64,000 bases of DNA from Cymodocea nodosa (lineage: Eukaryota; Streptophyta; Magnoliopsida; Alismatales; Cymodoceaceae). The position numbers and the translations under genes were made by a program. Location of the stretch: NCBI GenBank assembly GCA_036874045.1, contig CM072336.1:3368001-3432000 (forward strand), in the 5' to 3' direction. Each line of letters starts with the position of its first letter. Within the stretch, counting starts at the first letter, position 1. The notes beneath the pieces were generated by a model that was given only the letters and a program-made list of their open reading frames with translations, did no database searches and was not told the DNA's origin. Below, piece by piece: positions 33,404-63,468 of this stretch.

Positions 33404-33769
33404 TCAGCACCACCTCCTGCAAAAACATCTGTAGCGGCAGCAGTAGCGAATGCCCCAGCAGTTGCACCGACGCATGCAACGAACGTATGGTACACAGCAC
33501 CTCCTTTTCGATTGGTTTTCTCCAACTTTGGCTTCACCAACATCATTCGCGTCCAAGTCAAGTTCTGCAATGCATAATATAAGTTACTTTTGGTAGTACA
33601 TACAAACAATATAAAAGTAGTTAGTCAACAAGAAGAGTACTGGACGAAATATTTGGCGACCTGTGGCTTCTCTTTCAGCATTTTCCTCCGCTTTCACCAC
33701 CATGTCGGAGGTGACGAGTATGAGGGCCAGCAAAAAGGCGGTAAGCACGAAAATAGGCTTAGGAGCCAT
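33404..33769 (-). CDS. Secreted cysteine-rich peptide precursor, copy 1
   Basis: Exons 33769-33661 and 33564-33404 (phase-1 intron of 96 bp, donor CACAG|GTCGCC, acceptor TTGCAG) give an 89-residue precursor. Residues 1-27 are a signal peptide (MAPKPIFVLTAFLLALILVT, cleavage probably after VKA). An acidic propiece follows (AEENAEREAT, then ELDLDANDVGEAKVGE). The basic core has 10 Cys: CC-x5-C-x3-C-x-C-x5-CC-x3-C-x-C-x3-C, ending RRWC. The TATA box TATAAAT is at 33,854-33,860. It is the leftmost member of a four-copy array and the only one with 10 Cys. A secreted defence or signalling peptide is inferred; the core matches no named family I know, and resembles at most the Cys-rich tail of class II glycine-rich proteins. 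Confidence 0.78.
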
Positions 33770-33853
33770 CGAGATCCTCCTCCTCTTCTCTTCTGCTTCT
33801 GCACCGAAGGAAATATGTGGAGATCGATGCTGATGAGCAGATGGCCTAGGACC

Positions 33854-34265
33854 ATTTATAGCCAGCGTGGATGAGAACCAGTCAGATGTGGTGACATAAG
33901 GGCACGACTTTTTTGTGTTACAGACAAATAAATAAAATGATAGATAAATGGTGTGCATCGTTTTAATTTCCGTAGGTGCATGCATGGCACTGTGGGGCCG
34001 TCTATTTCGACGACCAAATCATATCCCACCCGAGATAAGCAAATGCTTCGTGACACTGAAGCAAGAAATACTGGACTTCTTGCCATAGACAAACAAAAAC
34101 AGATAAGCTTGTGATCGAGTTATTCTAATATTATTTTCGGGTGTTTTACCCATTCATTCATACAATCCGTTGTTATTTTATTATAATAAAATTCTAGTTC
34201 GTTGAACGTTATCTCTTGTACTTGCTGTAAATGTCAAACAAAGACTACGTACACTCACTTCCATT
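33854..34265 (-). promoter_or_regulatory. Promoter block of peptide copy 1
   Basis: TATAAAT at 33,854-33,860 lies about 91 bp upstream of the ATG. An 8-bp palindrome TGCATGCA (33,977-33,984), containing the RY/Sph core CATGCA, lies upstream. The block from the TATA box to about 34,265 is near-identical to the regions upstream of copies 2 and 3, so it was duplicated with the gene. Confidence 0.6.
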
Positions 34266-34330
34266 TGCCACGACCACTTACTTTCACGTCAAAGTAAATC
34301 CGAGATTACGTCAAAAATAACCATTCTAAT

Positions 34331-34640
34331 TCGTTGTTGTCGAAAAAATATTTGTAAAAGAAAAACATAAAAACCATTATTACGTGATACACATATATAG
34401 AATACAAATTTATAAAGAAACCGATGAAAAATATAAAAAGTCTATTATTAAAGGTTCACAAAACGTGTGAAGATAGTTTATACTCGCATCTAAGTGGATT
34501 AGATAATTTAGACTTTTACTCAAGAGCATTTGATGTATTGGATATGTCAACCTTTGAGACTTTGGTGATCCTTTCTTCTGTTTGAGCATACTTGCATTTA
34601 GTTTTATACATCGGGTTTGGCTCAATGTAGTCATACTTAT
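34331..34640. repeat. Dispersed repeat R, copy b
   Basis: Matches 36,139-36,430 over about 300 bp (words AAAATATTTGTAAAAGA, CTATTATTAAAGGTTCACAAAACGTGTGAAG) and part of 32,760-33,000. Confidence 0.75.
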
Positions 34641-34861
34641 ATTTTATGAACCATCCCGTGTAATCACTTTCTAAACCATTCACATTTATGTGGCCACATT
34701 AATCACTTGAAATTTACTGACATTCTTTTGGAACTAATATACTGCAGACGGTCAAGACGACAATGTTACACAGGGTTGTAGCTTCGCATGAAAGTGGCAT
34801 TGATCATTCACATCGTAAACATATCATCTATCTTGGACTGCATCTAAAGACTGCTTTCTTT

Positions 34862-35275
34862 TGGACTAAATGGAGGGTGGTAAAATATCAGCCTATACTT
34901 CATCTGATTTCTGTCATTTCGTTGGGGGATTTCTTTCATTTCAACACGGCGAGAAGCTCGTCATTCCGACGATATTTAGGCGAGAAATATGTGAAGATCG
35001 ATGCTGACGTACAGATGGGCCACGACCATGCTCTATTTATAGCAAGCGTGGATGAGAACGAGTCAGATGTGGTGACAAAAGGACACGACTTTTTTGTGTT
35101 AAAGACAAATAAATAAATTGACAGATAAATAGTGTGCATTATTTTAATTTCTATAGGTGCATGCATGGTACCGTGGAGCCGTCTAGATCGACGACCGAAT
35201 CATATCCCACTCGAAATGCTCTATTTTAATTTCTTCGTGACACTGATGCGAGATATACTGAGCTTCTTGCCACCA
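34862..35275 (-). pseudogene. Orphan promoter fragment of a peptide gene (coding part lost)
   Basis: From about 34,980 ('AAATATGTGAAGATCGATGCTGA') through a TATA-like CTATTTATAG (35,032-35,041) and TGCATGCA (35,158-35,165) to about 35,270 the sequence matches the leader and promoter of copies 1 to 3. Where the signal-peptide ATG should follow, the sequence instead continues into unrelated DNA (34,862-34,975) shared with 36,476-36,575. This is the remains of a fifth gene or a promoter-only duplication. Confidence 0.65.
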
Positions 35276-36138
35276 ACAAACAAAACAGATAAGCTTGGGA
35301 TCGAGATCATGTCACGATCATCGATCCTCCTCCTCTTCTCTTCTACTTCATCATACTTTCACCTCAAAGCAAACCCGGCCGCTCACTCGCTTCACCACGA
35401 GATCATGTCAAAAACAACCCTTCTCGTTCGATACTTGTGATAATTTTTGTGTAATTGGAATTATGATAAAAATTGGAAATACCATTACTTTTGAACGATT
35501 GGCATAATTATTACAATAAATTGTCCAAAGCAGTGAGAAGGAAAATTGTATGGTATTCCTTGTTTCTTTAATACCGATCTTTTAATGGTCAATTGTTTAT
35601 CTGTAGAAAGAGATCTTATGGTATAAGCATTTGAAAAGACAAGTGAAGGCATGTCACAAGCCTCATGCATCAATCCGTTTACTGGTCAACAACTTCAAAT
35701 TTTATATGAAATAGTATGACTTAATAGATCTAAGGTGGTTGTATATATGCTTATATCAGAATACTTTATCACATCTTTTATTTTACCTTTTTATTTCCAA
35801 AATATCTAGTTCACTATTGTAGATGTGCTGGATTGAATTGCATGTTCTGATTGCTTAATTTACAACACTGGTGTTATAACTACTAGTCCTAAAATGTCTT
35901 AACAAAGGACCAATTTATAGCTTACTAATATTTCTTTTTGACTTTTATCACTGAATGTACAAGTAGAGTTAAATTTTAACGTGGCCCAACGTTGACCCAT
36001 CTTATTGCAAGTCAGCCCAGTCCGTTTCTATGGTTGGGCGACGTCCTAATTAATTACGTTGTTCGTCGAGGCCGCTCTAGCCCAATTTACAATTTTAGGT
36101 ATATACGAAGTGCGTGAAGTCAACCTTGTGTGTTAGAT
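35276..36138. other. Intergenic, no gene recognised
   Basis: A short block at about 35,315-35,345 repeats the GATCGATCCTCCTCCTC leader words of the peptide genes. The rest is AT-rich without recognisable features. Confidence 0.45.
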
Positions 36139-36580
36139 TCGTTGTTGTTGATAAAATATTTGTAAAAGAGAAACATGAAAAATCACTATTACGTAATGCA
36201 CGTACAAATTTATAAAGAAATTAATGAAAAATATAAAAAGTCTATTATTAAAGGTTCACAAAACGTGTGAAGATAGTTTATACTTGCATGTAAGTAGATT
36301 AGATAATTTACACTTTTACTCAAGAGCATTTGATGTCTTGGATATGTGTAAAGATATTTTGATAATTTTGTTTTGCATATAGATATTTTAATAATTTGGG
36401 TATATGTATACTCTCTTTTCATATTTTAACCTTTACGAAAGGTGGTAAAATAATAACAAACAATTCAATATACTGGACTAAATGGAGCGTGGTAGAATAT
36501 CGGCCTATACTTCATCTGATTTCTATCATTTCAACACGGCGGGAAGCTCGTCATTCCAACGCTATTTAGGCAGGTGTCTG
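36139..36580. repeat. Dispersed repeat R, copy c, with fragment of the 34.9-kb block
   Basis: 36,139-36,430 matches 34,331-34,640. 36,476-36,575 matches 34,862-34,975 ('GGACTAAATGGAG.GTGGTA', 'AACACGGCG.GAAGCTCGTCATTCC'). The same two blocks in the same order show that the whole stretch was duplicated. Confidence 0.7.
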
Positions 36581-37240
36581 TGCAGGTGCTTAGTTGTGGT
36601 TGCCTATGGATTCGAGGGTGGTCATGGTCGCCGTCGTGCTGGTGCTCTCTTCTGTGCTTCCATTGTGCATGTGGTTTGTCTTTTCCATGCGATTTAACAG
36701 AGGGTGAAGCAGCCTACGTCGTCATGGGTAGTTAGCGGAGATTTTTTTGGTAATGCAATAGAAAGAAAAACTTAGATAATAAGCCTTAATTATTAAACCA
36801 TAATGAGGTAAAGTATAAAGTTCACCAATTACAACAAAAAATAGAGATAGCCACGAAAGGCTAATTGTTGCATCACCCTAGCGGCGGAAGTTAAAGTTGA
36901 CTTAGATATTATTAGCATTAGTGTTACGAGCATCTCAATTGAATTGGACATTTTTAATTAATTTTTTTAACAATCAATAGACTTTATATTATGTTTGTTG
37001 TGTATATTTATATTAGATTTTAATCTAATTTTAAATAATCACTCTTAACTGTTGTTAAAAGAATTTTTAAATATATACAAAAAATTAAGAATTTCATATT
37101 GTATTATTTTAAAAATAGTTCAATAAATCTTATAAGTTATACTGATACTAATTATATAAGATCTAAATTAGATAGAAATAGTACCAGTAAGTAGCACATG
37201 TTAATTGTTAGAAAATAATTTGGTATCATAGTTTAATAAA
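36581..37240. other. Intergenic, no gene recognised
   Basis: AT-rich, with a tRNA-primer-like or TE flavour but no motif I can name. Confidence 0.4.
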
Positions 37241-37244
37241 AAGT

Positions 37245-37760
37245 AAAATTATGTAGTGTTTACAAACACTAAGATTGAATATATTGTTGTTGTATTATGT
37301 TGTGCTCAAATTCTATAGATGCAATAAACTTTAGAAAATTTTAGATTATCTTATAATACTACTAAAATTTATTTTGATAACAGTTTTGTAATAAATTTTT
37401 TCAAAAATCCTATATTACATTCTAGAGCAAAACATATAAAGGTTAGATATTATTTTTTAAAGGATAATGTAATTAAATAAAAAATTAAATTAAGATTCGT
37501 GTCTAATGAACATCAATTAGCTAGTATCTTCTCCAAACCTTTAAATAAAAATACATTTAATAACATAATGTTAAATTTAGGCATTTGTATGCTATGTGAT
37601 GTATAAAAATAAAAATCCACAAATATAAAAATCTCTGATGATGTTATTTATCTTTTAGATATTATATACTTATCATATATATTTTAGTAATATCTAATCT
37701 GTTGCATAAGATATTATGTCTTAATGGTAAAATCATTATATTATCTTATAGACTTTATTT
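37245..37760 (+). mobile_element. Degraded copia RNase H tail and LTR
   Basis: In pieces the plus strand reads NFSKNPILHSRAKHI, RYYFLKDNVI and SNEHQLASIFSKPLNKNT, then NNIMLNLGI: the end of copia pol with the 'HQLADIFTKPL' box altered. LTR-like sequence follows (37,570-37,760), the same as at 31,200-31,390. The 5' part is absent. Confidence 0.75.
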
Positions 37761-39160
37761 GATTTTATGATTTTAACTTGTTATGAAATATTAATTGGAA
37801 ATACTTCATGCTTAAAAGAAACTCAGAATGCTTTTGAAATCTTGAAATTATGAATCAATATTAATGAACTCATACTTTTATTAATATTTTAATATAATTT
37901 ACATATAAATCATTCTACAAGTTCACTCAATCAAGTTAAACTTATTATTGATTATATTTAGAAAAGATTAAAGATTGTAAGGAATATGAGAGAAAGAGAG
38001 AGACATGATAAAAAAGAAAAGGTGAAAAAAAAGAAAAAGAAAAAACCAAGGACGTGCATTTTGCTTATCATGGAATATTCCACGAAATTTTCACATATAT
38101 TTGCACAAAAAAGAAAAGAAACGAAGTGTCAAGTAGAAATTTATAAATCAATCAAGCGATTGTGTAACAATAGTAAGAGTGGCCTTGATACGTTCCATCT
38201 AAAGAGAAAATACTCACATACAAGTAAACAAATGTTCATACAAGTATGATAGGGATGTGGATTTTTCTGAGAAATGATTGTAGCTACAACAGCATTGCCT
38301 TTTCGATGAAATAGAAAAATTCGTACAAGTAAAAAAAAGAAGAAATTACTTAAATAAATGAAATAAAAAAAAGGAAGAATTAAAACAGAAGGAAAAATAA
38401 AAATAAATAGAGAAATAAATTTGGAGCTTAGCTGGATAGCTCCCCTCTCCAAAGGCATGCTGAAAAGCTAATGCTCCCTCCATCACATTCCATTGCAACC
38501 AATCTGACTCAAGTCCATTACTTGTCAATAAATGCTAGATATGTGTATTTATTGAATGATAAACCTGTCACCAATATTGAACTTTTTTGGCAAAGATTAA
38601 TATTGAATATTGGCTCAACATTTTAGCCAAACCAATACTAAATAATATTTCAATCCATCTTTCCTTTCTTTTCCTTGCAAATTCCATTGTTGATGCTATG
38701 TTACAATAGAAGTGTCTTTTCTATTTACAATATTAATTAAAAATGGCCTATTATCCTTTCATAATTCTCACAAATTTTGTTATCATGAACACAATAAGTG
38801 ACATTCATTGATGATATTGGAAGATGCATATTGTAAATATAAAAAATCCAGAACACCATCTAAATATGGCTTGTCAGATGTTAAACAAAGTATCATTCCT
38901 TGCTAAAGAATACCATAGGTACCTAGAAAGATTATGAAATAAAGAAAACATAAAAAAAGAAAAACCCAAGTCGGAAAAGCTTTACAGAATTATTTTAATT
39001 ATATCCACAACGAGATTCACAACATCAATGATAAAAAATGGAATAAAAAATTAGCAAGGAAATGAGCATGAGAGACAGAATTAGTATATGGTTACAACAT
39101 TAGCAAATCTGCCCACAAAAATTAAATTTGCATGCACCTTCGACGAGCTCCACTAGGGCG
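37761..39160. other. Intergenic, no gene recognised
   Basis: AT-rich with poly-A and GAAAAA runs (about 38,000-38,050 and 38,330-38,410). Open frames are compositional. Confidence 0.5.
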
Positions 39161-39469
39161 ACTAGGGCTGCGTTTGGTAGAGGAGTTGGAGAGCGCTTTT
39201 GCATTGGAACGTGTGTCAAGAGCGCGCTTTAAACAAATAGTCGAGCTCTTCATCGACGCCAGAAGCATTGGAGCTGCAGCGACGACCAACAAAGCATATT
39301 TTTAGGCATTGTATTTTCCCAACTCTAGGAAGGCGTCGTCGATCGAAAGTCTAGAATACCTTCGTCACCATCACAGCGCCTCTGCGACTTTCACCCTAAA
39401 CAGCGCCTCCATCGATCTGCAATGGAGTAAACTCCTCTTTCACCTTCGTCGATTTCCATCAATTTGATT

Positions 39470-39622
39470 TTTTCTTTTGTCGATCTGCGACCATCGTATA
39501 TTTGAAGCTTCTTTTGTCGATCTTCGACCATCGTTTATTTGAAGCTTCTTTTGTCGATTTGCAACCAAACTATATTTTAAAAGCTTCTTTTGTCGATCTA
39601 CGACAAAAGTATATTTTAGCTT
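39470..39622. repeat. Minisatellite, about 4 units of 36-46 bp
   Basis: The unit 'AAGCTTCTTTTGTCGATCT' plus 'GCGACCATCGTATATTTG' recurs four times with small changes, in the left subterminal part of the Harbinger element. Confidence 0.8.
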
Positions 39623-40530
39623 TCTCCTATTAAGTGGGTTCATGCAGTTTTATCATTGTCGTTATTTTTCTATTTTTTCCTGCAATTTTAGTGCATTGTT
39701 TTCATATGTTTTCATATGCATATGTAGGGGTTAGTAGAGAATTTAATCTACAGTTGATCGTGTATGATTGCTGTTAATTTTAGTGATTTCTTCAATGCTT
39801 TCAACATCATATTTATTTGCAAATGTAAAGATTCATTTACTATCATAAAAGTATCTAAAAATGGTACAGAATCGAATTATAATTTTCAATTTATGAACTT
39901 TTCTTGAAAGATCAATCAAATATCTATTAGTAGATGTTGGTTTTGTTGGATTTCACTTAATATTGAGGGAGTTACGAAGATTTCAAGTTAGAGGTGTTTT
40001 AATGTTTTTATTGGAACAATCATGTTGACACCCTCTGATATTTGTGCTACCGCTTGTAAATGATTAAGTGATTTACTTAAAAAATATTTTTCCTAGTTAG
40101 ATGAATTTCTCCTAATATGACCTACGACCATCGTATATGATTACTGTTAATTTTAGTGATTTCTTTTGTATTCTGTGTAGCCTTGAGCTTTTTTTTTTTT
40201 AGCTTTTTCTACTTTGCTTGAGAGGAGAAATATTTTAGACAATAAGAAGAAATAGTAGTGGTAGTAATAGTAGAAAAAAAAAGTCTATGGATTGGATAAG
40301 AAATCTCTGCAACTTGTAAAATTTTGAGTTATGTTGTTTCCTTATTTTTATTAAATGAATATGAAAACTATATTTTTATTGATGGGAGTCATATGAATCA
40401 TGCTTATTTTTATTTGAATGTTTTCGATCACTAGTTTATTTGAATAGTTTTTATTTGAAATCATTTTGTGTTTATTTCATGCAATTATATCTAAACTTAC
40501 ACTATCCTATTTTTGCATTTGTTCAGTACA

Positions 40531-41824
40531 ATGGAGAAATTTTTAGAAACTGGTGATTTGATAGAACTTGAACTTTAGGAAATTTTTGAGTTACTTCTAT
40601 TGTTTTATGCATACATAATACAATTGTTGCAAACTTATAATTCAACCAAAAGGCAACGAGTGCATAGCATGCCTTATTCTGGAAAAGATGTTATTGACAA
40701 CATGTTAGGAGGACATTGGAGGGTTTGTTTTGACATGCGTCATATGATCCCATCTACTTTTATCACTTTGTGTCAAATATTGAAGGGGAAAAATCTTTTG
40801 GAGAATGGAAGGTGGGTTACTATTGAGGAGCAAGTGAAGATTTTTTTGCAAACAGTTGGGCATGGACATAAAAATAGAGTACTACAAAACTATCAACAAC
40901 ATTCTGGGGAAACAATTAGTAAATATGTTCATAAAGTTTTAGATACGTTACTATTATGGGCACCTGATGTTATTCAGCCTAAGGAATCTTTTAATGAAAC
41001 ACCACAATTTCTTAAGGACAACCCTAGATTTATGCTGTATTTCGAAGATGCAATAGGAGCGCTTGATGGTACACATGTTCATTGTGTTGTTAGGAAAAAT
41101 AAACAAATCTCATTTAGATGTGGTAGACATGGCAAGTAGACAACTCAAAATGTATCGGGCGTATGTGACTTCAACATGTGATTCATTTTTGCATCAGCCG
41201 GGTGGGAGGGCATTACACATGATTGTCGAGTACTTAAGCATGCAATGTCTGATCCACGTCATAAATTTCCTAATCCACCTGTAGGTACTATATTTTCAAA
41301 TTATTAAGAACATTGTAAGTCTACCTTGAACATATTTTTGAACTAATATTGTTGTCAAATTTATAGGTAAGTACTACTTGGTTGACTTTGGCTATCCAAA
41401 TGCAGTTGGTTTTCTTGCACCATACAGGACCATTAGATATCACTTACCAGAATTCCAATCCTCACAACCACACAGTGTAGAGGAGCATTTCAATTATTTA
41501 CATTCTTCTTTGAGGAATGTTGTTGAGCGTGCATTTGGAGTATTGAAGAGGAGGTGTCACATTTTGAATCATATGCCGCCATTTCCATACACTACTCAAG
41601 TAAAGTTAGTGGTTGCTTGCATGGTCTTACACAACTTCATAATTGATCATAAGTTTATAATGGATCAAGAAGCATTATCGATCAATCAAGATGAAGAACA
41701 TGTTGAAGTTCATGATCAAGAAATGTTAACAAGTACCAACTGTGAAGTTTCTGTTATGTTAGATGAGTTGGACATGGGTACTATGCGTAACAACATTAGA
41801 GATCTAATAATGCAAAATGAATGA
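40531..41824 (+). pseudogene. PIF/Harbinger (HARBI1-like) transposase, broken
   Basis: Starts MEKFLETGDLIELEL and meets a TAG at 40,576, then continues in frame. The N-terminal helical region (MRHMIPSTFITLCQIL, EEQVKIFLQTVGHG) precedes the DDE_Tnp_4 domain. The catalytic acids are visible: Asp in GALDGTH (about 41,061), Asp in THDCRVL (about 41,220) and Glu in NVVERAFGVLKRR (about 41,525). In-frame stops at about 41,137 (TAG) and 41,181 (TGA) break it. A small intron (about 41,287-41,367) joins PPVG to KYYLVDFGYPN. The enzyme would cut and join transposon ends; as it stands it is not translatable in full. Confidence 0.85.
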
Positions 41825-42031
41825 TTTATTTGATAACTCAAATTTCAAACATTTTATTCCATTGTTTTGTTATTTTTATTGTTTAAATGTTATCTTTATT
41901 GTTCAAATATGATTTGTAGTATAAATTGGTCTATATTGTTATTATTCCATTATTGAATGTCATTTCTATTACTTAAATATTTTCAGTGTTTGAATGTTAT
42001 TTGTTATTGTTTGACTTCTCTAATGTTTGCT

Positions 42032-43011
42032 AACAGAATGTTCGTGAATCTCTTAAGGAAAGAGCAAGCATCAAAACGTGTCCCAAAGACAAGCGCTCCT
42101 AGAGTAGCATGGGAAAATGATTTAGTTTCTACATTGCTAGATATTTGCATAGAGCTTACTGACTTGGGACACAAACCTGGCATACACTTGGATGCAAAAG
42201 GATATGACTTATGCGAACAAAAATTATTGGAGAGGACAGGAATGAGGCAAACAAGATCACATTTAAAGAATAAATTGGAAAAATTAAGGAATGACTGACA
42301 ATTGTGGAAAACAATTGGCTCTCAAATAGGTATCGGATGGAATCCTACAACCATGACTTGGGAAGGTGCAGATGACACATGGTGGGAAAATTTTCAAAAG
42401 GTATGTAATTGTTCTGTAATAATTTTGTTTGATATTTTTATTTTATTTCATTATTCACCAACTTATTTGATAATTTTGTTTGATACATGTAGGTCGAACC
42501 AAATTGTGAGAAATTTCGCTATCGAGACATAAAATTTGTTGGCAAGTTGGAGAGACTTTTTGATGTCACTGTTGCAGTAGGTGAGTCTGTTTATATCCCA
42601 AGCTCTGAAGTAAATCCATCCCAAAGTAGTGAGCAGATGTCTGTAGAGGATTTGAATGTGGAAGCGGACATCAACACACCCATTGTTGGAAGTACACCAA
42701 CGTCAACATCCACTGCATCTTCTACAGGTAGAAGACGTCAACATGTTGCAAGCCTAAATGATCGGATTGATTTAATAGAGTCAATCATTTTGAAATTTGA
42801 AGAACGTAGACAGATGTATAATTATCCTCAATGCATCAAGAAGATTAAAGAGATTGGATTTATGAAAGGCACAAAAATATGGGTGTATGCCATGTTAAAG
42901 TTTGAGAAACAAGTCACTCAAGAAAGCTTTCTAAAGGTAGAAACATTTTCAGTGAATGTCCAATGGTTAGAAATGACCTTCATGAATTGGAAGAGAACGG
43001 GGACGATATGA
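42032..43011 (+). pseudogene. Harbinger-associated Myb/SANT-like DNA-binding protein, broken
   Basis: KRVPKTSAPRVAWEND followed by LLDICIEL, GIHLDAKGYDLCEQKL and KLRND is the Myb_DNA-bind_3 fold found in the second protein of plant PIF/Harbinger elements; it helps recruit the transposase to the ends. A TGA at 42,296-42,298 stands where Trp is expected (before QLWK). An intron at about 42,400-42,493 (GTATGT to TGTAG) joins WWENFQK to VEPNCEKFRYRDIKF. The C-terminal part has a Ser/Thr-rich linker and a coiled, Lys-rich tail ending near 43,011. Confidence 0.8.
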
Positions 43012-43289
43012 AGACTTTTAGTTACATGCATAAACATCTAAAAATTAGAAGACTTTAATATTTTCAAGACATTTATACTATTAGAAGACTTTAATGTTTT
43101 AACTTTAATTATTTCAACTTTATTACTTGTGTTTGAATGATTCATGAATGAAGACTTATGTTTGATGTTCATATATTTATAAATTTATTAATGTGTTTGA
43201 ATAATGAATTGATTATTGAATAACATTGTAATTTTTTATTTTAATTTAAAATAGAAAATGTAAAAAATAAAAAATGTCAATCCAACTGA

Positions 43290-43600
43290 ATTTAAGCTTC
43301 ATGAAACCAAAGGAAAAATAATAATAAAATGTTTAAAACAATCAAAAACTTCTGTCAGACATAAGTTAGGTTAGATTGAAGAAAAATAATAATAATATAT
43401 TTAAAAAAATCAAAAACTTCGGTCTAATCGAAGTTGGGTTAGACTGAAGAAAAATAATAATAGAATATTTTAAAAAATCAAAAACTTCGGTCGGACCGAA
43501 GTTGGGCTTCGGTCAGACCGAAGAAAAATAATAATAAAATGTTTAAAAAATCAAAAACTTCGATCGGACCGAAGTTGGGCTTCGATCAGACCAAAGTTGG
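43290..43600. repeat. About 64-bp tandem repeat with CTTCGGTC hairpins, 4 units
   Basis: Each unit has AAAAATAATAATAAAATGTTTA, then CAAAAACTTCGGTCGGACCG or variants. CTTCGGTC and GACCGAAG are inverted within and between units, so each unit can fold into a stem. Confidence 0.85.
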
Positions 43601-43904
43601 GGTAGTGTCTATTGTATTAGTGTGCAAATACAGGTCGAACCCACAGGGAATTGCTTAAGAATTGAGAATTGTTATGCGTTTAACAATCAAATATATATAT
43701 TCAATAAACTCTCCGTTGAATTACAGTTAACTCAACAGACTAAGTTCGTTGAGTTATTGCTAACTCAACAAACTAATCTCGTGGACTTAAGTTAACTTCA
43801 CGAGCCTGATTTTTCAATTTAATACTACTATTTACGAGCCTGATTTTTCAATTGTTTTTTTTCTTCCAACTGTTTGTTCCTGCAACTGCTACAGTAGCAT
43901 ATTA

Positions 43905-44420
43905 GAAAATATACGGTCCGTGGAGTTACAAATAACTCAACGGACTTGCTTTGTTGATTTAACTATAAAACACGTGTATAAATTTAACTATCCGATGCTC
44001 AGGTGCATTTCGGATACTTACAAACTTAACTATCCGATACTCAGGTGCATTTCGGATAGTTACAGATAACTCACTGATATATAACTTAAGTCAATCTTCC
44101 AGATCTCGACACGTGTCATCAGCAGTTTTATAATAAAAGAAACATTTCGGAGAGTTATAGGTATAACTATCCGATGCTCAGATGTATTTCGAATAGTTAG
44201 AGATAACTCACCGAAAATCTACTTAAGTCACTTTCTCAGAACATGACACATGTCCACAGCTATTTTATAAGTAAAAGGAAATTTCAGAGAGTTACACACA
44301 TAACTATCTAATGCCCAGCTGTAATTTCGGATAGTTATGAATAACTCACTAAAAGTTCACTTAAGTCATGCATTATGGTTTCGACACGTGTTCTTCAAGA
44401 AATAATAAAATATTTTTTCA
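43905..44420. repeat. GGATAGTTA/TAACTATCC repeat array inside Harbinger
   Basis: 'AACTATCCGATGCTCAGGTGC' plus 'ATTTCGGATAGTTA' occurs as short units of about 52 bp (43,990-44,060) and then as three units of about 138 bp, each with 'GATAACTCAC', 'CTTAAGTCA' and 'GACACGTGT'. The direct and inverted words make it rich in potential stems. Confidence 0.75.
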
Positions 44421-45820: not shown

Positions 45821-45829
45821 GACTTAATG

Positions 45830-52095: not shown

Positions 52096-52460
52096 TCAGC
52101 ACCGCCTCACGCAAACACAGACCTTGCGGCGGCAGTAGCGACGACCTCGCGGACGCGGGCACCTGTCCCAAAGGACGCAACGTGGGACCCATCTACAGCA
52201 CCCTCTTTGGTCTTCTCCAACTTTGTCTTCACCAACATCATTCGCATCCAAGTCAAGTTCTGCACAGAATAATATAAGTTACTTTTAGTAGTGAATACAA
52301 TATACAAGTGGTTAGTTAACAAGAAGAGTACTGGACGAAATATTTGGCGACCTGTGGTTTCTTCTTCCGCATTTTCCTCCGCTTTCACCAGCACGTCGGA
52401 GGTGACGAGTATGAGGGCCAACAAAAAGGCGGTAAGCACGAAAATAGGCTTTGGAGCCAT
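52096..52460 (-). CDS. Secreted cysteine-rich peptide precursor, copy 2
   Basis: Exons 52460-52352 and 52259-52096 (92-bp phase-1 intron, same CACAG|GTCGCC donor and TGCAG acceptor as copy 1) give 90 residues. The signal peptide differs from copy 1 only at DVLVKA. An acidic propiece (LDLDANDVGEDKVGEDQ) precedes a very basic core with 8 Cys: CC-x5-C-x5-C-x8-C-x4-C-x-C-x3-C, with RRYC and a CVCVRRC end. TATAAAT at 52,554-52,560. It is closest to copy 3. Likely secreted and processed; target unknown. Confidence 0.8.
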
Positions 52461-52553
52461 CGAGATTCTCCTCCTCTTCTCTTCTGCTTCTGCACCGAAG
52501 GAAATATGTGGAGAACGATGCTGATGAGCAGATGGGATAGGACCATGCTCTCC

Positions 52554-52995
52554 ATTTATAGCCAGCGCGGATGAGAACCAGTCAGATGTGGTGACATAAG
52601 GACACGACTTTTTTGTGTTACAGACAAATAAATAAATTGACAGATAAATAGTGTGCATTGTTTTAATTTCCGTAGGTGCATGCATGGTACCGTGGAGCCG
52701 TCTAGTTCGACGATCGAATCATATCCCACCCGAGATAATCAGATGCTTCGTGACACCGAAGCGAGAAATACTTGGCTTCTTGCCACGGACAAACACAAAC
52801 AGATAAGCTTGGGATCGAGTTATTCTAATATTATTTTCGGGAGTTTTACCCATTCATTCATTCAATCCGTTGTTATTTTATTATAATAAAAGTCTGATTC
52901 GTTGAACGTTACCTCTTGTGTTTGCCGTAAAATGTCCAAGCAAAGACTACGTACACTCACTTCCATTTGCCCACGGCCACTTACTTTCACGTCAA
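52554..52995 (-). promoter_or_regulatory. Promoter block of peptide copy 2
   Basis: TATAAAT about 100 bp upstream of the ATG; TGCATGCA at 52,677-52,684. The match with the copy 1 and copy 3 upstream regions runs to about 52,995, where gypsy-flanking DNA begins. Confidence 0.6.
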
Positions 52996-53949
52996 AGAAA
53001 CCCGACCATACTTACAAGAATATTATTTGTAATTATGCAAGATTATGCGTGAACTGTGATTTATTTCTGTTATGTGTTTTATTGAATTATTTCTTGTTTA
53101 TCAATGAGTAATAATATTATTGATGTGATGTGTTCTCACTTAGTTGTTTTATTGTTGCAAACTTAGTTTATATTTTTCATCACTTGGGGAAATTAAACAG
53201 AATCAATAAAGACTAGTCTGTTGACTCTTCTATTTTACTATTATCCTATTGTTTGTTCTATTATGGATAGTCAATCTCCTAGTGAATTTACATTTCCATT
53301 TGATTTTCATGATATTGATTTAAACAATGCATGTTCAAAATGTTATCTGTACGATCATATTGCTAGTACTTGCCTATTTTATATATTTGAAAATGAAATA
53401 ATTCATGTGGCAGGTAATGAAAATGAGCATGAAAGAAATTATTTGTCTAGTATGTCATATGCATCTCATATGAATTTTGATTAATTTGCTAGTGCATCTA
53501 AAGTAAATGATAGTATTTTTTGTTGTGCATCATATATTGATTTAATTGAAGATAAATTTAACGAAATACTAGGAAATATTCAAAAGGAAAAAGACTTAAG
53601 TGAATCAAATGTTGTAGATTTGTTGAGTGACGGCCAAGCAATAGGAGTGGATGCTTTTGTTACTTTAAGGTTAAGTAAGGAAGTGAGTAATCTTGTAGTT
53701 GAATCTTCATCATTCTTAAATTCTAGAGGAGAACCTAGTGATGAGCCATTAAATTTAAATCCTAATATGCAATCTAGAATACCTATAATTAATTCTAGAG
53801 AACCTAAAGGGAAGCAAGTAATTTATACATCTTTAAAGCCCTTAAATTCATCTAATGCTCTATATCCAAATAGGCTTAGAATGAAACTGAGTATTAATCA
53901 TATGGATAAAATTAGATAGACTTTTGAGCAAGTAATAGTTAATATTCTT

Positions 53950-54417
53950 TTGTTGGAGCTAATTCAACAAAGTCCATCTCATGCTAAGTATCTAAAAGAA
54001 TTATGTACTAAAGAGAGAACTATGAAAATTATGAAGAATGTGAGCTTAGTAGAAGCAAGTAGTTTGTATTTTTGTACCCATATTCTTAGGAAGTATAGTG
54101 ATCCTGTCACCCCAACTATTTCGTATATTATAGGGAATACTTATTTTGAGGGAACTTTATTAGATTTGGGAGATAGAGTAAATGTTATGCCTTCTAGTAT
54201 TTATGAGAACTTAGGTCTTCCTTGCTTGCAACCTACTAGAATAGTGATTCTTTTAGTAGATCATTTTGTTAGAACACCTTTAGGGGTACTTGAAAACTTT
54301 CTTATTGAAATACAAAATTTTGTTTACTTGATAGATTTTGTGGTAACAAAAAAGCAACCTATAACTAACATTAAAAATCCTACACCTTTAATTTTAGAGA
54401 GACCTTTCCTAGCTTAG
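53950..54417 (+). pseudogene. gypsy aspartic-protease fragment
   Basis: A 155-codon open segment holding the retropepsin-like DLGD motif with NVMP and LGL downstream and the ILxRPFLA end. It is the longest intact piece of the element. Stops on both sides show it is not a host protein. Confidence 0.75.
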
Positions 54418-55961: not shown

Positions 55962-56201
55962 ATGAGAGTGGTTATAAGAGAAAAGATTGATAAACTACTA
56001 AGAATAATTTATTATGCGAGCAAGACTTTGATAGAAACCCATAAGAATTATACCATAATAGAGAAGAAATTTTTGACAATAATGTTTACTATGAAGAAGT
56101 TTAGATCTTATCTTGTAAGTTCACATATTATTATCTATACAAATCATAGTGCTCTAAAGTATCTCTTCACAAAGAAAGATGCAAAGCTAAGGTTGATTTG
56201 A
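55962..56201 (+). pseudogene. gypsy RNase H fragment
   Basis: The YYASKTL, NYTIIEKKFL and YTNHSALKYL motifs are the gypsy RT-RNase H region. The usual Asp before 'HxALKYL' is Asn (TNHS for TDHA). Confidence 0.8.
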
Positions 56202-56638
56202 TGGATTCTATTATTGTAATAATTTAATCTGAAAATAAAAGATAAAAAAAAATATAAAAATATAGTAGTAGAAGAACACACTGTATAAGTGACAAATGAT
56301 CTCGTTAAGCCCAACCTCACCTAACATGAGCTTCCCACCATTGGACGTTCAAAAGTTCACTCCAATAGATTACATTTTTCAAGAAAAAATACATGTACCA
56401 CTAATGAAGACTAATCATTACACAAAAATAAAATAAAGCATAATAAAATAACAAGTTTAAATTTGATGACACAAGTATTTTGAAGAAAGCTTGCATGGAT
56501 AATGCTTATTCGGTGCGGCGCTTACACATGATCCACCTTGTGCTAGCTGCTTATTTATCTTATACATATATATGTAGTTGCTAGTACGCTGGAGCGATGC
56601 TCATCAATTAACCAACGGCGTCGTAGGTAGACTGACGA

Positions 56639-57001
56639 TCAGCACCGCCTCACGCAAACACAGACCTTGCTGCGGCAGTAGCGACGACTTCGCAGACGCG
56701 GACACCTGCCCCAAAGGACGCAACGCGTGGCCCATCTACAGCACTTTGATTGGTCTTCTCCAACTTTGTCTCCATCATTCGCACCCAAGTCATGTTCTGC
56801 ACAGAATAATTTAAGTTACTTTTAGTAGTGAATACAAACAATATAAAAGTAGTTAGTCGACAAGAAGAATACTGGACGAAATATTTGGCGACCTGTGGTT
56901 TCTTCTTCAGCTTTTTCCTCCGCTTTCACCGGCACGTTAGAGGCGACGAGTATGAGGACCAGCAAAATGGCGGTAAGCACGAAAATAGGCTTTGGAGCCA
57001 T
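56639..57001 (-). CDS. Secreted cysteine-rich peptide precursor, copy 3
   Basis: Exons 57001-56893 and 56796-56639 (96-bp phase-1 intron) give 88 residues: signal peptide (MAPKPIFVLTAILLVLIL...), acidic propiece (HDLGANDGDKVGEDQ, two residues shorter than copy 2), then a basic core with the same 8-Cys spacing as copy 2, ending CVCVRRC. TATAAAT at 57,095-57,101. Differences from copy 2 are mostly substitutions; the single deletion is a multiple of three. Its 3' flank is cut short by the gypsy side at about 56,450. Confidence 0.8.
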
Positions 57002-57094
57002 CGAGATCCTCCTCCTCTTCTCTTCTGCTTCTTCACCGAAGGAAATATGTGGAGATCGATGCTGATGAACAGATGGGTCAGGACCATGCTCTCC

Positions 57095-57535
57095 ATTTAT
57101 AGCCGGCGTGATGCGAACCAGTCTTATGTGGTGACATAAGGACACGACCTTTTTGTGTTACAGACGAATAAATAAATTGACAGATAAATAGTGTGCATTG
57201 TTTTAATTTCCGTAGGTGCATGCATGGTACCATGGAGCCGTCTAGTTCGACGACCGAATCATATCCTACCCGAGATAATCAGATGCTTCGTGACACTGAA
57301 GCGAGAAATACTTGGCTTCTTGCCACAGACAAATACAAATAGATAAGCTTGGGATCGAGTTATTCTAATATTATTTTCGGGAGTTTTACCCATTCATTCA
57401 TTCAATCTGTTGTTATTTTATTATAATAAAAGTCTAATTCGTTGAGCGTTATGTCTTGTACTCGCGGTAAAATGTCCAAGCAAAGACTACCTACACTCAC
57501 TTCCATTTGCCCACGGCCACTTATTTTCTCGTCAA
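57095..57535 (-). promoter_or_regulatory. Promoter block of peptide copy 3
   Basis: TATAAAT about 100 bp upstream of the ATG, TGCATGCA at 57,217-57,224, and about 440 bp shared with copy 2. Confidence 0.6.
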
Positions 57536-58690
57536 AGCATGCAGACATTAGTAGTACTGAAAAACACATCTATTCTCCTCTATTTAGAGGGATTTGCCAT
57601 TTGGTTAGGGGCGTTAACATCTCCTCATTTTTATGTTACAATAAAGTATGTTTTAAATAGGCTTATATTAGACAAAAAAAGAGACTTGGCATAAAATTTA
57701 TTTTGAGTTAAATGTCAACATTTCAATATGTTATCAAAGTCAATAGTCATTTAAGTTCAAGTCCTCTATATCTATCTAATTCAAAAATAAAGATATATGT
57801 TAGATCTAAAAAAGTCGCAATAAAATACAATGATAAAACAGTCTTGTAATAAAAATGAGATGGAATTTGACATAAAATATATAAAAAAATTCTTTAGTTA
57901 TAAACAATTGACTTCAATTAAATTCAAGTTAAACTTCAATTAAAAATTCTTTCAACGAAGTAAAAGGCTTACCATAGATAGGGTAGGGATAGCCTCGTTC
58001 CAATTTACGATGTAGTACGTACGCAGACCTTTGTGTTGTATTTATTTATCTTGTTTTATACACCTTTTCATCATGTTTCTACAACAGTTGGATTTTAATT
58101 TTCATTTTTTCTGAAAGATTTAATTTCTTCGCTATTATAATATTGTACCATTTGGTTCTCTCATCTCCGCTTCCGTGTACTACACTTATTTAACTATTGC
58201 TTTACAATTAGCAGATATTACAGTATCCAATGCTTTTTTAATAATGATATTATTTCCGTCTGAATTCCAATACAAAACTTTATCTCTTCAAATAGTGTGT
58301 ATAACTTTGATCAACATTGCCCAATGATTCATGCATGATTCTTTACAAATAAATAAACTGAGCATGCATTTCCCGTTTACATTCAATCAAATCTGAGACA
58401 AATATAGAATGCAATGCGGATCTGATGATGAGATGCCTGTGGCCCGAGTCATTTCACGGGAGATCGAGAAGATATCATGGAGTGTGACGAACTTAACAAC
58501 GTGATTAATTAAGCATCCTACTACATCTCTTGCTTGAAGACAAGAGAACTTCACCAAATACTGGAAGGATCGAGAGAATGCAATATATAAAGAAAACTTT
58601 AAAAGCATGGTACCAAGAACAAATCAATTGAGAACATGGTCAGATCGGACAACATACATGTTCTTAATTAATTATATTATTACTTGATTA
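57536..58690. other. Intergenic between peptide copy 3 and SAUR
   Basis: AT-rich. The right part would contain the SAUR 3' untranslated region. No other feature recognised. Confidence 0.5.
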
Positions 58691-58696
58691 ATTACT

Positions 58697-59194
58697 CTAG
58701 TCATCGGCATATTGGCTTGTGAGTGTGTTGGGGCTCATCCAGCCGACCTCGGAGGAGCAGTTGCAATGATTCTCCTTCTTCTTCTTCTTCTTTTTCTTCT
58801 CCTCCACCAACTTTAGTATGTTCTCAAACACCGAAACTTCGCATGGAATCCTCAACACGCCTTCCTGCTGGAACCCAAACTCCTCTTCCGCGTCGTTCAG
58901 CAGGGCCACGAAAGCCTGGTGGCTCAGGTACTCGGTCGGGATCACGAACCGCTTCAGCTCCTCGCCGACGCAGACCGCGAGGAATCCCTTGGGCACGGTC
59001 GTCGTCGATGACGTCGTCGCGATGGTTGAGGAGGAGTCGGTGAACGAGAGGGTTCTCTTCAGAAAACCCACTTTCTTGGTAGTGGTGGCGGCGGTGGTTG
59101 TCTTGGGTGTGACCGCCAGCTTCTTCCACTTCTTGAGCATCTGCTGAAGGCGAACGATCTCCGTGATCTTGTTGTTGGGTTTCTTCTGATCCAT
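58697..59194 (-). CDS. SAUR family protein (small auxin up RNA)
   Basis: SAUR proteins are short, auxin-induced regulators, many of which inhibit PP2C-D phosphatases to raise plasma-membrane proton pumping and cell expansion. This intronless frame gives 165 residues, long for the family. A basic N-terminus (EIVRLQQMLKKWKKLA) and a Ser/Thr-rich linker precede the SAUR domain at about 68-130 (VPKGFLAVCVGEELKRFVIP, EYLSHQAF, LLNDAEEEFGF, LRIPCEVSVFENIL). A run of eight Lys at 133-140 comes from a CTT microsatellite (58,774-58,800). Codon third positions are strongly G/C. A TTTAAAT box lies about 85 bp upstream (minus strand). It interrupts the peptide-gene array and is unrelated to it. Confidence 0.93.
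   Translation of the reverse strand: MDQKKPNNKITEIVRLQQMLKKWKKLAVTPKTTTAATTTKKVGFLKRTLSFTDSSSTIATTSSTTTVPKGFLAVCVGEELKRFVIPTEYLSHQAFVALLNDAEEEFGFQQEGVLRIPCEVSVFENILKLVEEKKKKKKKKENHCNCSSEVGWMSPNTLTSQYADD
58774..58800. repeat. (CTT)n microsatellite in SAUR
   Basis: Read as AAG/AAA Lys codons by the SAUR gene, directly after the conserved domain. Confidence 0.85.
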
Positions 59195-59274
59195 CTTCTC
59201 CAGCGTCGCTCGAGTTGGAGGCTGATTGTGGTTGGTGATGGATGGGGAGTAGGAGGTGAGATTTGTGCATGGGA

Positions 59275-62040
59275 ATTTAAAGAGGCTGGCTGATCTTATG
59301 ACTTCTGTTTAATAATTAGTTTTTTTTATAATAATGATTTGGAAGTTTATCAAAATTTAAACCAGATACGATTATATAATCGAATATTATTACTTTTAAT
59401 TAATTAAATTATTACAATCGGTTAATTTTAAATTGATTGATGATGTCTATTTTTATGAGCCTATGATTCGAAAAGCTTCGGTCTTAAGGGAAGGAAATCA
59501 AATTAAAACTCCCAGTCAATGTTCCAGTTACCGTGGCACGCTTTCAACAGTGCATAAATTAAACTATGATCATATTATTAATTATTTAGCGGTTTTCAGT
59601 TATTGCCTTATCAATGGATGTTCTTCAATCTCTATGCTTTTCTACGGTTGATCCAACGGCCAACGCAGTTCCCTACATGGCATCTGTTATATCCAGGGGA
59701 GTCGTGTCACACATAAATTACATAATTAATGACTTCGATCATGTGCTTCATGCAAATTCAATATTCATGTATTTATGTATCCTTCTCTACAGTGTAAAGT
59801 CGGTGGTAAATAAATGTATAACAGGGTAAAAAAAATTTCAAACCATTTCTTATATTAAATGGAGTACCAGTCTTATATATATTAATGATCTTTATTTTTA
59901 TAATGATCGATTTCTACCTATCATGGCATGAGCTCGTGATTGGATACCGTTGAATATACAGGAGAACGTGGAAGGTGGTAGAGAGAAGATCAGTTGCATC
60001 TCGCATGTGAAGGTAAGGTCCACGCACTGCACTTAAAACGTGAACATTATTTATTCCAGTGTCTAAGCTAATTCAACTTGTGGTGGTATATATATATCTA
60101 TATGTATCTCTTTTATCGTATGTGACATGCAGCTGTTAGATATTAGCGTTGGAGTAAGACTTTAATTAATAATTCGAAACATACATCTACTATTTAAAAA
60201 GAGGAGCTCATATTTATAGTATGAGTTCAGGTCCTATTCGTAACTCCAAGACTTGTATTTGCAGAGATCAGAATGGAACTTCTAGGTGAATGTCTAAAGG
60301 AAGCCTTTAGAACTTTAGATCAATGGACATTAATTTAGGTTAGGGCACCTCCGAAGTCCACAGATCAAACTCTACCAAATGTCCAACCGGACATTTAAGT
60401 CAAGGTTTCGGTCACCACATTGAAAGTTTCTTTTAAAACCAATTAATAATAAAAAACGAAACACAATGTTATAAGATAGATTTAAGTTCAAACATATTTT
60501 TATCAATGTAAGACTCTTAACTTTTATACATAGAATCTTTTTTCAGACATTCAGGAAGATGTTCGATACAACATAATGAGAGGCCATTAATCTATAATAG
60601 TCATTCAAGCAGATGTAAAGTGTACAATTTCTATTCTGATTTTGAATGGTTTCCTAGGTAACTAATTCCAATTAATCTCTCCTAAACACAAAGAAAATAA
60701 AATATTAACGTGGTATTTGATGTGACGTATTGGGCAAGGCCATGAGCAACTCTCAAATATTGTAAACAGGGTGTTGGTAACTTGGCAAGATGAACAAGCA
60801 AACTGACATATATATGAGCAAAGTTTAATTTGCATCCTGCTTCCCGTCCTTGATTTTTTGAAGTACGTGTACAAGATTATTAATATCCAGGGGAGACACG
60901 TAGATGTACATTTCATGAGATTGATCAGTTAACTGCCACCATACGTACGTAGTTCTACTCAATATGCATGACAACTTCAATTCACGTCGATTTATGGTCT
61001 ATGTGTGTGTGTGTATATAAAACTGGAGAGTAGGAAGATCTGCAGGATGGAACTACAGAAATAATTATTAATAAACAAAGACAAAAAAAGGAAGCCATCA
61101 GTGCATCATTGCTTCTCTCACTCATGCGTGATCGGGCATTGACATGTTTCCTCTCCAACTTGGGGAAAACCCATGAGAATCAAAGAATCTTGTACCTGCA
61201 AAGGACCGCACCCTCCCCAACCAATTGCCATAATTCAAAAGATCTATCGGAAGATAATATATTAATTATCATGTGCAAGGGATCCAATGCATCTAAGCAA
61301 GCTAATGAGTGGTGTAGCAAAACTAGTACGTACGTCGACCAAGCGAATTAAAGGCGATCGCGCATCAAACATGGATGGATTGTACTGAACGTAATCTGAA
61401 CTCTTGTCTTCTTTATCAATGGTCATTTCTTTTTAAACTTCGTTGGTGTTATATGTATACATGTGTGTCTGTTTGTGTTATCTACAAGGCCATGTGAGTT
61501 ACTGCACTACTGCAGGCGTTGCTCGCTGCGGTTCGATGTGTGCGATCGAGAGGGGGGGGGGGGGGGTTAAATTATTTTCTTCGCCTCAATCAGCTCTGAC
61601 GAGTCTCATGCAAGGGTTGATAGAGGTGTTGAATGAATCTGCCGGTCAGTTCGAGGGTAACAATTAAATTACGTACAACTGCCGAAGATGGCGGTTAAGG
61701 TCGTTGGGGTTGGAACACGAAAGCGGTTTCGTCATGGTGTCCGATGCACGGCACATGGCATTCGGCTTGAATTTGCTTCCGTAGCGCTCCATCGGACACT
61801 GTGTCTGATTATTGCATGTGATCACATGCTTGCCCACCATACACACAAAAAGGATGATTTGCGCGCATGCTATTCTTTTTCTATATATTTATGTTCATAA
61901 CATCTTTATTGTGAGCAATGATCGATGTTAAGACTATCGATAAACTGAAACATTATTTTAACCAATAATTTGCCATTAAGCATTCAAAAAAGTTTAAATA
62001 TTTTCTAGGCCTTCAAGGTGCTACTTCAAAAATAGAATTA
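59275..62040. other. Intergenic between SAUR and peptide copy 4
   Basis: The left end is the SAUR promoter. I see no further gene. Minus-strand open frames at 60,662-60,916 and 61,664-61,846 contain several Cys but have no signal peptide, partner exon or known motif. A 15-G run is at 61,552-61,566. Confidence 0.5.
61552..61566. repeat. Poly-G tract (15 G)
   Basis: Fifteen uninterrupted G after GATCGAGA. Able to form G-quadruplex-like structures; may also be a sequencing-length uncertainty. Confidence 0.85.
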
Positions 62041-62049
62041 ACATATACT

Positions 62050-62420
62050 AGCTAGTGCAGGTATACTCTTGATATTTTTAATGAAACAAGGCTTATAGGA
62101 GTCAAGCCTACAAGAAGCCCCATTGATGGGTATTTATTTTTAGATTATGATAAACAAAATCTTCTAAGAGACTTATTCGAAAGTTATCTTACTATTACCA
62201 AGGTTGAAATTTCTTATGCCGTTAATTATCTTAATAAGCTTGTTGTTAAATCATGTATAGAACATTATGCACTAACAATCATTAAATATTTGGAAAATAA
62301 TCATGGATAAGGGTCGTTACTTTCTTTAGAGATGAAGTATATTTAATCTGATTCTTATCGTGATGCTGATTTGATTTGAAATTTAGCATCTTTTCCTCAA
62401 TAACCAATGCTTATTCAATT
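62050..62420 (+). mobile_element. Degraded copia reverse transcriptase/RNase H remnant
   Basis: The plus strand reads in pieces LDIFNETRLIGVKPTRSPID, SYLTITKVEISYAVNYLNKL, IEHYALTIIKYLENN and SDSYRDADLI. These correspond to the copia stretch between the RT thumb and RNase H (usually 'LTITRPDISYAV', 'YSDADW'). It is strongly diverged and has stops. Confidence 0.75.
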
Positions 62421-62779
62421 AATTCAAATAAAATTTTTACCATATGTTTATAGTTATTTTACTCGTTCAATAATCTGGATTCACTCAAATTTTCATGAAA
62501 CGCTGTCAGATCTTTTGACGATTCAAAATCAAATGAATTTTCCACTGTTTGACCCAAGCATTAATTAATTCCCAGTCAAGATGAATAATATTACACCATT
62601 ATCAACTATGTATGTATAACCTGAAGACTCCTTAATCTTTATATATATCTTGGAATTTGAATCGAGCACATCATCGGATACGTTCTAAGAGTCGTGGCAA
62701 CTCAACAAGGAAGCCATATAATATTTCCATAAATTTAAGTTCTTAATTCGGTGCCATACATATCCAGGAGTACGTGCTC

Positions 62780-63087
62780 AAGCATGGATGATGTATAAGT
62801 TCGATTAAAGTGGGCATGTAAAGGAGCAAGTTTGTACTTGTTACACACACACATATATAAAAGATTAAATTAGATGACACAGCTGGTATATGTATTAAGG
62901 CTTGCATGGATTACGGATGTGGAACTTTAGGCAAATGAAGCTTATTCGAAGAGTGCAGCACTTGCACACGACCTAGTGCCGCTTATTTATCTTATACATA
63001 TGCACGTAGGTGGTAGCACGTACGTGTAAAGGAGATACACTCATCAATCAAGCAGCGGCGTCGTATGTACGACGACACTGTTTAATT
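62780..63087 (-). other. Conserved 3' flank of peptide copy 4
   Basis: 'AAGTTCGATTAAAGTGGGCATGTAAAGG', 'GATTAAATTAGATGACACA', 'GGCTTGCATGGATTACGGATG' in pieces, and 'GCTTATTTATCTTATACATATG' correspond in order to 33,145-33,340, 51,845-52,030 and, in part, 56,455-56,575. This shared block probably includes the 3' untranslated region. Confidence 0.6.
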
Positions 63088-63468
63088 CTAGCACCACCTC
63101 CTGCAGTACCTATGGTAGCGGCAACAGTAGCGGTAATGGCCGCCACGGTAGCACCGACGGGTGCACCTTCTGTACCACCCTCCGCAGCAGTGCCTCCCGC
63201 CTCCATGTCGGTCTTCACCAACTTCTTCTACACCGGCATCGTCTGCATCCAACTTAAACTCTGCACAGAATAATATATGTATATATATGTTACTTTAATT
63301 TAGTGAATATATAATCAGTGAGTCGACAAGAGGAGTAGAAGGAACATTTCGCACGCAACCTGTGGTTTCTCCTTCGGCTTCTTCCTCGGCTTTCACCAGC
63401 ACGTCGGACGTGACGAGCATGACCGCTAGCAAGAGGACGGTAAACGCGAAAATGGGCTTGGGAGCCAT
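63088..63468 (-). CDS. Secreted cysteine-rich peptide precursor, copy 4 (most diverged)
   Basis: Exons 63468-63360 and 63260-63088 (99-bp phase-1 intron, donor CACAG|GTTGCG, acceptor GTGCAG) give 93 residues. Signal peptide MAPKPIFAFTVLLLAVMLVT, acidic propiece (EFKLDADDAGVEEVGED), then a Gly/Arg/Tyr-rich core with 8 Cys: CC-x6-C-x3-C-x8-CC-x5-C-x3-C, ending YCRRWC like copy 1. In this copy the alternative frame that stays open in copies 1 to 3 is closed after ten codons, which supports the frame chosen here. TATAAAC at 63,569-63,575. The RY-type palindrome seen upstream of copies 1 to 3 is absent. Confidence 0.8.

Follow-up and report, generated by a model that had tools for sequence, protein, structure and literature searches.

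Four paralogous genes in a 64,000-nucleotide stretch of Cymodocea nodosa DNA (assembly GCA_036874045.1, contig CM072336.1, positions 3,368,001 to 3,432,000; hereafter the window) encode what appear to be precursors of small, cationic, cysteine-rich peptides. Between g1 and g2, the first two of these genes (g1 to g4), sequence change is concentrated in the segment that encodes the predicted mature core, and this divergence halts at the core edges, a point absent from the sequence-only reading that drew attention to the genes. The four-gene family is real as sequence. There is about an even chance that it represents a lineage-specific tandem family of secreted, cationic, disulphide-rich peptide precursors, most likely for defence. 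Sequence-level support comes from five sources: gene structure; duplication; charge pattern; cysteine framework; and core-limited divergence. Secretion, cleavage, disulphide bonding, activity and expression of g1-g4 are what we infer from these.

Gene structure and precursor layout

All four genes lie on the minus strand at the places proposed in the sequence-only reading, with the two-exon layout and the phase-1 intron at the same codon that it described. The coordinates below, like all others here, are window positions.

33404-33769, minus: g1, two exons, product of 89 residues
33661..33769, minus: g1 exon 1, signal-peptide-like N-terminus and beginning of the acidic propiece
33565..33660, minus: g1 intron, 96 bp, phase 1, GT..AG
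33404..33564, minus: g1 exon 2, remaining propiece, then the 10-Cys core coded by 33407-33499
52096-52460, minus: g2, two exons, product of 90 residues
52352..52460, minus: g2 exon 1
52260..52351, minus: g2 intron, 92 bp, phase 1, GT..AG, no in-frame stop if retained
52096..52259, minus: g2 exon 2, propiece, then the 8-Cys core coded by 52099-52200
56639-57001, minus: g3, two exons, product of 88 residues
56893..57001, minus: g3 exon 1
56797..56892, minus: g3 intron, 96 bp, phase 1, GT..AG
56639..56796, minus: g3 exon 2, propiece, then the 8-Cys core coded by 56642-56743
63088-63468, minus: g4, two exons, product of 93 residues
63360..63468, minus: g4 exon 1
63261..63359, minus: g4 intron, 99 bp, phase 1, GT..AG
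63088..63260, minus: g4 exon 2, propiece, then the 8-Cys core with two CC-C-x3-C modules, coded by 63091-63189

Exon 1 is 109 bp long in every gene, and exon 2 ends in a stop codon. The splice model is supported because exon 2 stays in frame even though the intron lengths differ by non-multiples of three. Reading through the intron meets an in-frame stop in g1, g3, and g4. Intron retention in g2, and in none of the others, would yield a longer, frame-shifted product (52107-52718, minus). The splice donors are GTCGCC in three genes and GTTGCG in g4; both deviate from the usual plant consensus.

Each product begins with MAPKPIF followed by a hydrophobic stretch, with plausible cleavage (judged by eye) after VKA. 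The acidic propiece, taken to start at residue 28 and stop before the CC pair, comprises 31, 29, 27, and 33 residues in g1 to g4, with net charges of -5, -11, -8, and -10. The basic core, which opens with the CC pair and closes the protein, has 31, 34, 34, and 33 residues and net charges of +8, +11, +11, and +10. These computed charges bear out, in all four genes, the acidic-then-basic layout proposed earlier; the earlier core length of 33-36 residues needs correction, although the cysteine counts (10 in g1, 8 in each of the others, starting from CC) stand. The cores contain 8, 11, 10, and 10 arginines and have calculated masses of about 4.0-4.4 kDa, to be lowered by two mass units for each disulphide. 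Glycine is sparse, with one residue in each of the g1-g3 cores and four in that of g4, which also has a GGG stretch before the CC pair.

Divergence confined to the core

Along the g1-g2 alignment, DNA identity drops to 0.65 in the core. The intron stands at 0.90, exon 1 at 0.93, and the exon-2 propiece at 0.94; upstream the values are 0.91 (distal) and 0.95 (proximal), and downstream 0.92. Nonsynonymous divergence (dN) in the core reaches 0.61. At non-coding sites, 61 of 750 of which differ, divergence is 0.086, giving a ratio of 7.1 (Fisher p 2.4e-12). Core synonymous divergence (dS) is 0.447. The ratio of core dN to non-coding divergence is 6.3 for g1-g3 (p 2.0e-11), 2.3 for g2-g4 (p 5.5e-4), and 2.1 for g3-g4 (p 1.5e-3). 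With g4 as outgroup, g1 accounts for 7 core changes and g2 for 17, the non-coding counts being 14 and 11; the core has therefore changed more on the g2/g3 side.

A scan with 60-column windows, in which gaps were counted singly as differing columns, gives the same location. The densest g1-g2 window falls in the core region, with 36 differing columns, and 2000 shuffles reach at most 21. For g1-g3 the densest window has 35 (shuffles at most 24), and for g2-g3 it has 14, a value attained by 1.5% of shuffles. Change within the g1-g2 core is itself uneven: 8 of 10 Cys columns are kept, versus 6 of 21 other columns (p 0.01).

Parsimony-informative sites divide by region. In the core they split 15:1:0 in favour of pairing g2 with g3 and g1 with g4. 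The flanks (proximal upstream region, exon 1, intron, propiece, and 3' region) give 4:5:3, with no pairing favoured among g1-g3. The dN excess, the core-centred hotspot, and this split uphold the earlier description of the family as rapidly diverging. Among core codons that specify the same residue, synonymous differences number 1 of 14 for g1-g2, 3 of 20 for g1-g4, 4 of 15 for g2-g4, and 5 of 14 for g3-g4.

Decay of CpG dinucleotides was considered as a cause of the hotspot, the cores having 56-65% G+C. It accounts for part only: of the 33 g1-g2 core differences, 10 touch CpG and 18 are transversions.

Cysteine framework

Seven cysteines are invariant in all four cores: 22, 23, 29, 33, 41, 48, and 52 in g1 exon-2 numbering. 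The g4 core has its eighth at 42; g2 and g3 have theirs at 46. Since g1 has both 42 and 46 plus an extra Cys at 35, the count is even in every core, and the 10-Cys g1 core is an apparent intermediate between the two 8-Cys frameworks.

The g1 and g4 cores read as CC-x5/6-C-x3-C twice, with no spacer between the modules. When the cores were shuffled 200000 times with the end Cys held, this two-module pattern arose in a fraction of 0.0004 for g1 and 0 for g4; with the loop relaxed to 4-8 residues the fractions were 0.0023 and 3e-5.

Duplicated surroundings

The genes sit in duplicated DNA, so their common architecture is not due to chance. Best pairwise DNA blocks span 824-1667 aligned columns at 66-92% identity: 92% for g2-g3; 86% for g1-g3; 80% for g1-g2, whose block is the longest (1667 columns); and 66-68% for each of the three pairings with g4. 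Similarity extends upstream, where TATAAA positions are counted from the start codon.

33770..34331, minus: g1 upstream region, common with g2 and g3 (about 90-91% distal, 92-95% proximal), TATAAA at -91
52461..53034, minus: g2 upstream region, common with g1 and g3, TATAAA at -100
57002..57546, minus: g3 upstream region, common with g1 and g2, TATAAA at -100
63469..63738, minus: g4 upstream region, only the proximal part common (about 79-80%), TATAAA at -107
34984-35305, minus: relic copy reduced to the promoter and a portion of the 5' leader, 83-87% identical to g1-g3

A palindrome, CATGCATG, lies about 220 bp upstream in g1-g3 and is lacking in g4; it resembles seed-type RY elements. The relic, added here to the earlier gene list, retains this site, and no coding exons were found for it. 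A 5'-leader-like piece ending in a start-codon-like ATG lies displaced beside the relic, near 35350. Related repeats at 32737-33005, 34329-34569, and 36137-36435 (83.6-88.2% pairwise) flank g1 on both sides and recur beyond the relic. Their placement is as expected if the tandem copies arose by unequal crossing-over, for which they are possible substrates.

Relation to known peptide families

The sequence-only reading found no established family for the core and named the Cys-rich tail of class II glycine-rich proteins as the nearest look-alike. Database searches agree on the first point. Exon-2 parts alone match no Pfam family in any of the four genes (E<=10); the four-precursor alignment yields 363 candidates in the protein collection, none at E<=0.01, and g4 alone yields 2, none at E<=10. 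This search relies on shared 5-residue words, so that fast-changing relatives can escape it; plants are represented in the collection, for the SAUR gene of the window finds 694 proteins, Zostera marina first. Literature searches turned up no peptide family of this kind for this marine-allied plant lineage.

The look-alike fares less well. PF07172, the glycine-rich protein family, is the sole Pfam match of all four precursors, and their scores of 17.9, 16.9, 15.6, and 27.4 bits (g1 to g4) all fall below its curated cutoff of 30 bits. All nine control sequences also match it: exon 1 alone of g4 (13.6 bits) and of g1 (17.6); g4 residues 1-57 (16.8); g4 with a shuffled core (21.0 and 19.2); and g4 with a shuffled signal region (18.7, 16.1, 14.7, and 16.1). 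Because shuffled controls still score, much of the g4 value reflects composition; because intact g4 outscores every control, the match may still contain some genuine similarity. According to PMC5852109 the defining features of the class are a signal peptide and a C-terminus rich in Cys, and according to PMC3045888 coffee members have diversified to 6-12 Cys. All four products share the signal-peptide-like amino terminus; their own C-terminus is rich in Cys and bears Tyr, but the exon-2 parts that encode it match no Pfam family. They differ in having no glycine-repeat region, almost no glycine in the g1-g3 cores, an acidic propiece, and an Arg-rich core.

The sequence-only reading also stated that the Cys spacing does not fit the defensin, thionin, snakin, hevein, hairpinin, LTP or RALF patterns. 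One framework left out of that comparison comes close to g1 and g4. The relevant sections of PMC10136942 and PMC4695807 describe the Ib-AMPs of Impatiens balsamina as 20-residue peptides with 5-6 Arg, spacing CC-x8-C-x3-C, and disulphides C1-C3/C2-C4, active against fungi and bacteria; six of them are cut from one precursor, in which acidic propieces of 16-35 residues separate them. The cores described here are likewise small, Arg-rich, and headed by a CC pair, followed in g1 and g4 by C-x3-C. Each is preceded by one acidic propiece, of 27-33 residues, and the cores of g1 and g4 end in CRRWC, as does Ib-AMP4. The loop in g1 and g4, however, is 5-6 residues rather than 8; CC-x8-C-x3-C occurs in none of the four cores; two modules share a core without a spacer; a precursor holds a single core and a single propiece, not six peptides; the module pattern is broken in g2 and g3; and the host is a monocot. 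With Cys positions fixed, whole cores compared with Ib-AMP1 and Ib-AMP4 gave uncorrected P values of 0.0235 and 0.004 (g1), 0.064 and 0.0145 (g2), 0.008 and 0.004 (g3), and 0.092 and 0.046 (g4). For their second halves, g1 and g4 gave 0.0055-0.05, also uncorrected. In a literature string search four papers contained CRRWC, two of them as Ib-AMP4, one as a shrimp crustin, and one as a formula; three further sequence strings were not found. The Ib-AMPs are the nearest described framework, a resemblance in kind rather than membership or demonstrated homology, as the loop length fails.

Two other families were compared. Alpha-hairpinins, in the account of them drawn from PMC11591084, follow C-x3-C-xn-C-x3-C with non-Cys x. 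The g1 and g4 cores hold C-x3-C ... C-x3-C and are Arg-rich, but they carry additional Cys between the pairs, all cores start with CC, and the first pair is C-x5-C in g2 and g3; the non-Cys pattern is thus found in none of the four, although it is not absolute, as that account includes hairpinins with five or six Cys. Thionin precursors, in the section of PMC4695807 devoted to them, comprise a signal peptide, a 45-48-residue thionin, and a C-terminal acidic domain, with conserved ends and a more variable mature part. The genes resemble them in a CC near the start of the core, positive charge, and conserved precursor ends around a variable mature part; three of the four cores also have 8 Cys. 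They differ in that the acidic part is N-terminal, the core has only 31-34 residues, and the core ends the protein; neither precursors nor exon-2 parts have a Pfam thionin match.

Structure searches, made individually with the g1, g2, and g4 precursors, produced only matches judged to be chance. TRPM4 supplied 8 of the 9 solved-structure matches of g1 (E 0.0025-0.0085) and did not recur with g2 or g4; the alignment joins hydrophobic, acidic, and basic segments, and its best single stretch has E 0.16. The remaining candidates were a NET-domain protein for g1 (E 0.54), a dioxygenase as the one g4 match (E 0.3), and elafin for the g1 core (E 0.93 and 1). The g2 precursor, the g2 and g4 cores, and the exon-2 profile matched no solved structure. 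By tblastn the g1 core also matches 24925-25005 (minus), at E 1.5e-4 when composition is not corrected for; this short Cys-rich stretch belongs to a 123-bp tandem repeat, and the match is probably chance. The end of the g2 and g3 cores may resemble protegrin.

Proposed function and alternatives

If the genes encode defence peptides, the signal peptide would route the precursor into the secretory pathway, and the acidic propiece could neutralise and shield the Arg-rich core until cut off. The freed core might fold as two small CC...C-x3-C loops and bind negatively charged microbial surfaces, as described for Ib-AMPs. A common promoter and shell around a variable core would then supply a set of peptides with different surfaces. 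A broader and less probable proposal is that the genes represent a plant peptide family not described before, having a disulphide framework of its own (double CC...C-x3-C, one shifted Cys), a core either spared from or outrunning the concerted evolution of the shell, and a tandem array giving diverse peptides under one expression programme.

Several observations weigh against these interpretations. Core dN does not exceed the non-coding rate for g1 against g4 (ratio 1.1, p 0.37) or g2 against g3 (1.3, p 0.35). The CC-x5/6-C-x3-C pattern was chosen after the cores had been inspected, and g2 and g3 lack the strict module: their first half has C-x5-C, and their second pair is missing its second Cys. 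The two modules are alike only in Cys and composition (P 0.97 for g1, 0.48 for g4), so internal duplication is unsupported. A dibasic site precedes the core in g1 only. Similarity to Ib-AMPs with Cys fixed is weak overall (P 0.004-0.39 across 16 uncorrected comparisons), and for the first halves of g1 and g4 it is not significant (P 0.16-0.39).

The main rival for the nature of the products is a glycine-poor offshoot of the class II glycine-rich proteins, secreted, with a Tyr/Cys-rich tail that is cross-linked into the wall or binds wall-associated kinases. The definition of the class, its range of Cys numbers in coffee, the PF07172 matches, and the GGG stretch and top score of g4 all speak for it; the sub-cutoff scores, the compositional share of the g4 score, the unmatched exon-2 parts, the missing glycine repeats, and an acidic propiece that falls outside the class as described in the sections of PMC5852109 and PMC3045888 drawn on here make it unlikely. 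Reproductive or other signalling ligands are less likely still. Small, secreted, fast-changing Cys-rich peptides are also typical of pollen-pistil signals, and the RY-like CATGCATG site may point to tissue-specific expression; yet a single 8-bp site that g4 lacks is weak evidence, and +8 to +11 in 31-34 residues, with richness in Arg, Trp, and Cys, fits antimicrobial peptides better. Pseudogenes drifting without function are very improbable: a promoter-only relic adjoins g1 and the splice donors are weak, but all four frames are intact, exon-2 indels are multiples of three, seven Cys are invariant, TATA boxes and flanks are kept, and the g1-g2 core has changed at about 7 times the non-coding rate where drift expects about 1.

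A further alternative bears only on how the cores came to diverge and does not conflict with the defence-peptide reading. Gene conversion may have homogenised the promoter, exon 1, intron, and 3' end of g1-g3 while older cores escaped, or a core may have been swapped from an unseen paralogue; we place this only slightly short of an even chance. The contrast between a long core branch and a near-absent flank branch suggests such an event: the flanks are star-like, and point mutation by itself would hardly produce the 15 shared core changes. The g1-g2 core dS is also high, although largely from codons altered at several positions. Against conversion, the single synonymous difference in 14 same-residue g1-g2 codons fits a recent split, and a high-divergence stretch that stops with the coding core is more easily explained by selection. 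Positive selection and core-sparing conversion are both possible routes, and both require that the core be handled differently from the shell.

Plants commonly have orphan Cys-rich peptides that evolve fast, which limits the interest of one more such family; core-only divergence and a shifting Cys framework raise it. If expressed, the genes would form a natural series in which all but the active peptide is nearly constant, allowing a direct test of disulphide framework change, and of gene conversion versus selection in plant peptide arrays.

Other contents of the window

Rfam and tRNA scans of the window gave no matches. The SAUR gene (58697-59308, minus; PF02519, E 3.8e-29) is 76% identical to a Zostera marina protein over the whole query, 75% to an unnamed protein, and 69% to one from Colocasia, which suggests an alismatid host related to the seagrasses. 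Exon pieces at 24020-25356 (minus) look by eye like L-arabinokinase; one has a weak glycosyltransferase match (E 0.004, below cutoff) and the other none. A CW zinc-finger exon lies at 29473-30024. Mobile-element remains include copia-like pieces at 13594-15069 and a PIF/Harbinger-like transposase piece at 41342-41824 (plus; PF13359, PF04827), followed by a Myb/SANT-like piece at 41957-42298, an arrangement known from PIF/Harbinger elements. The interval 43250-44368 contains several tandem arrays that overlap one another and have 42-137 bp units.

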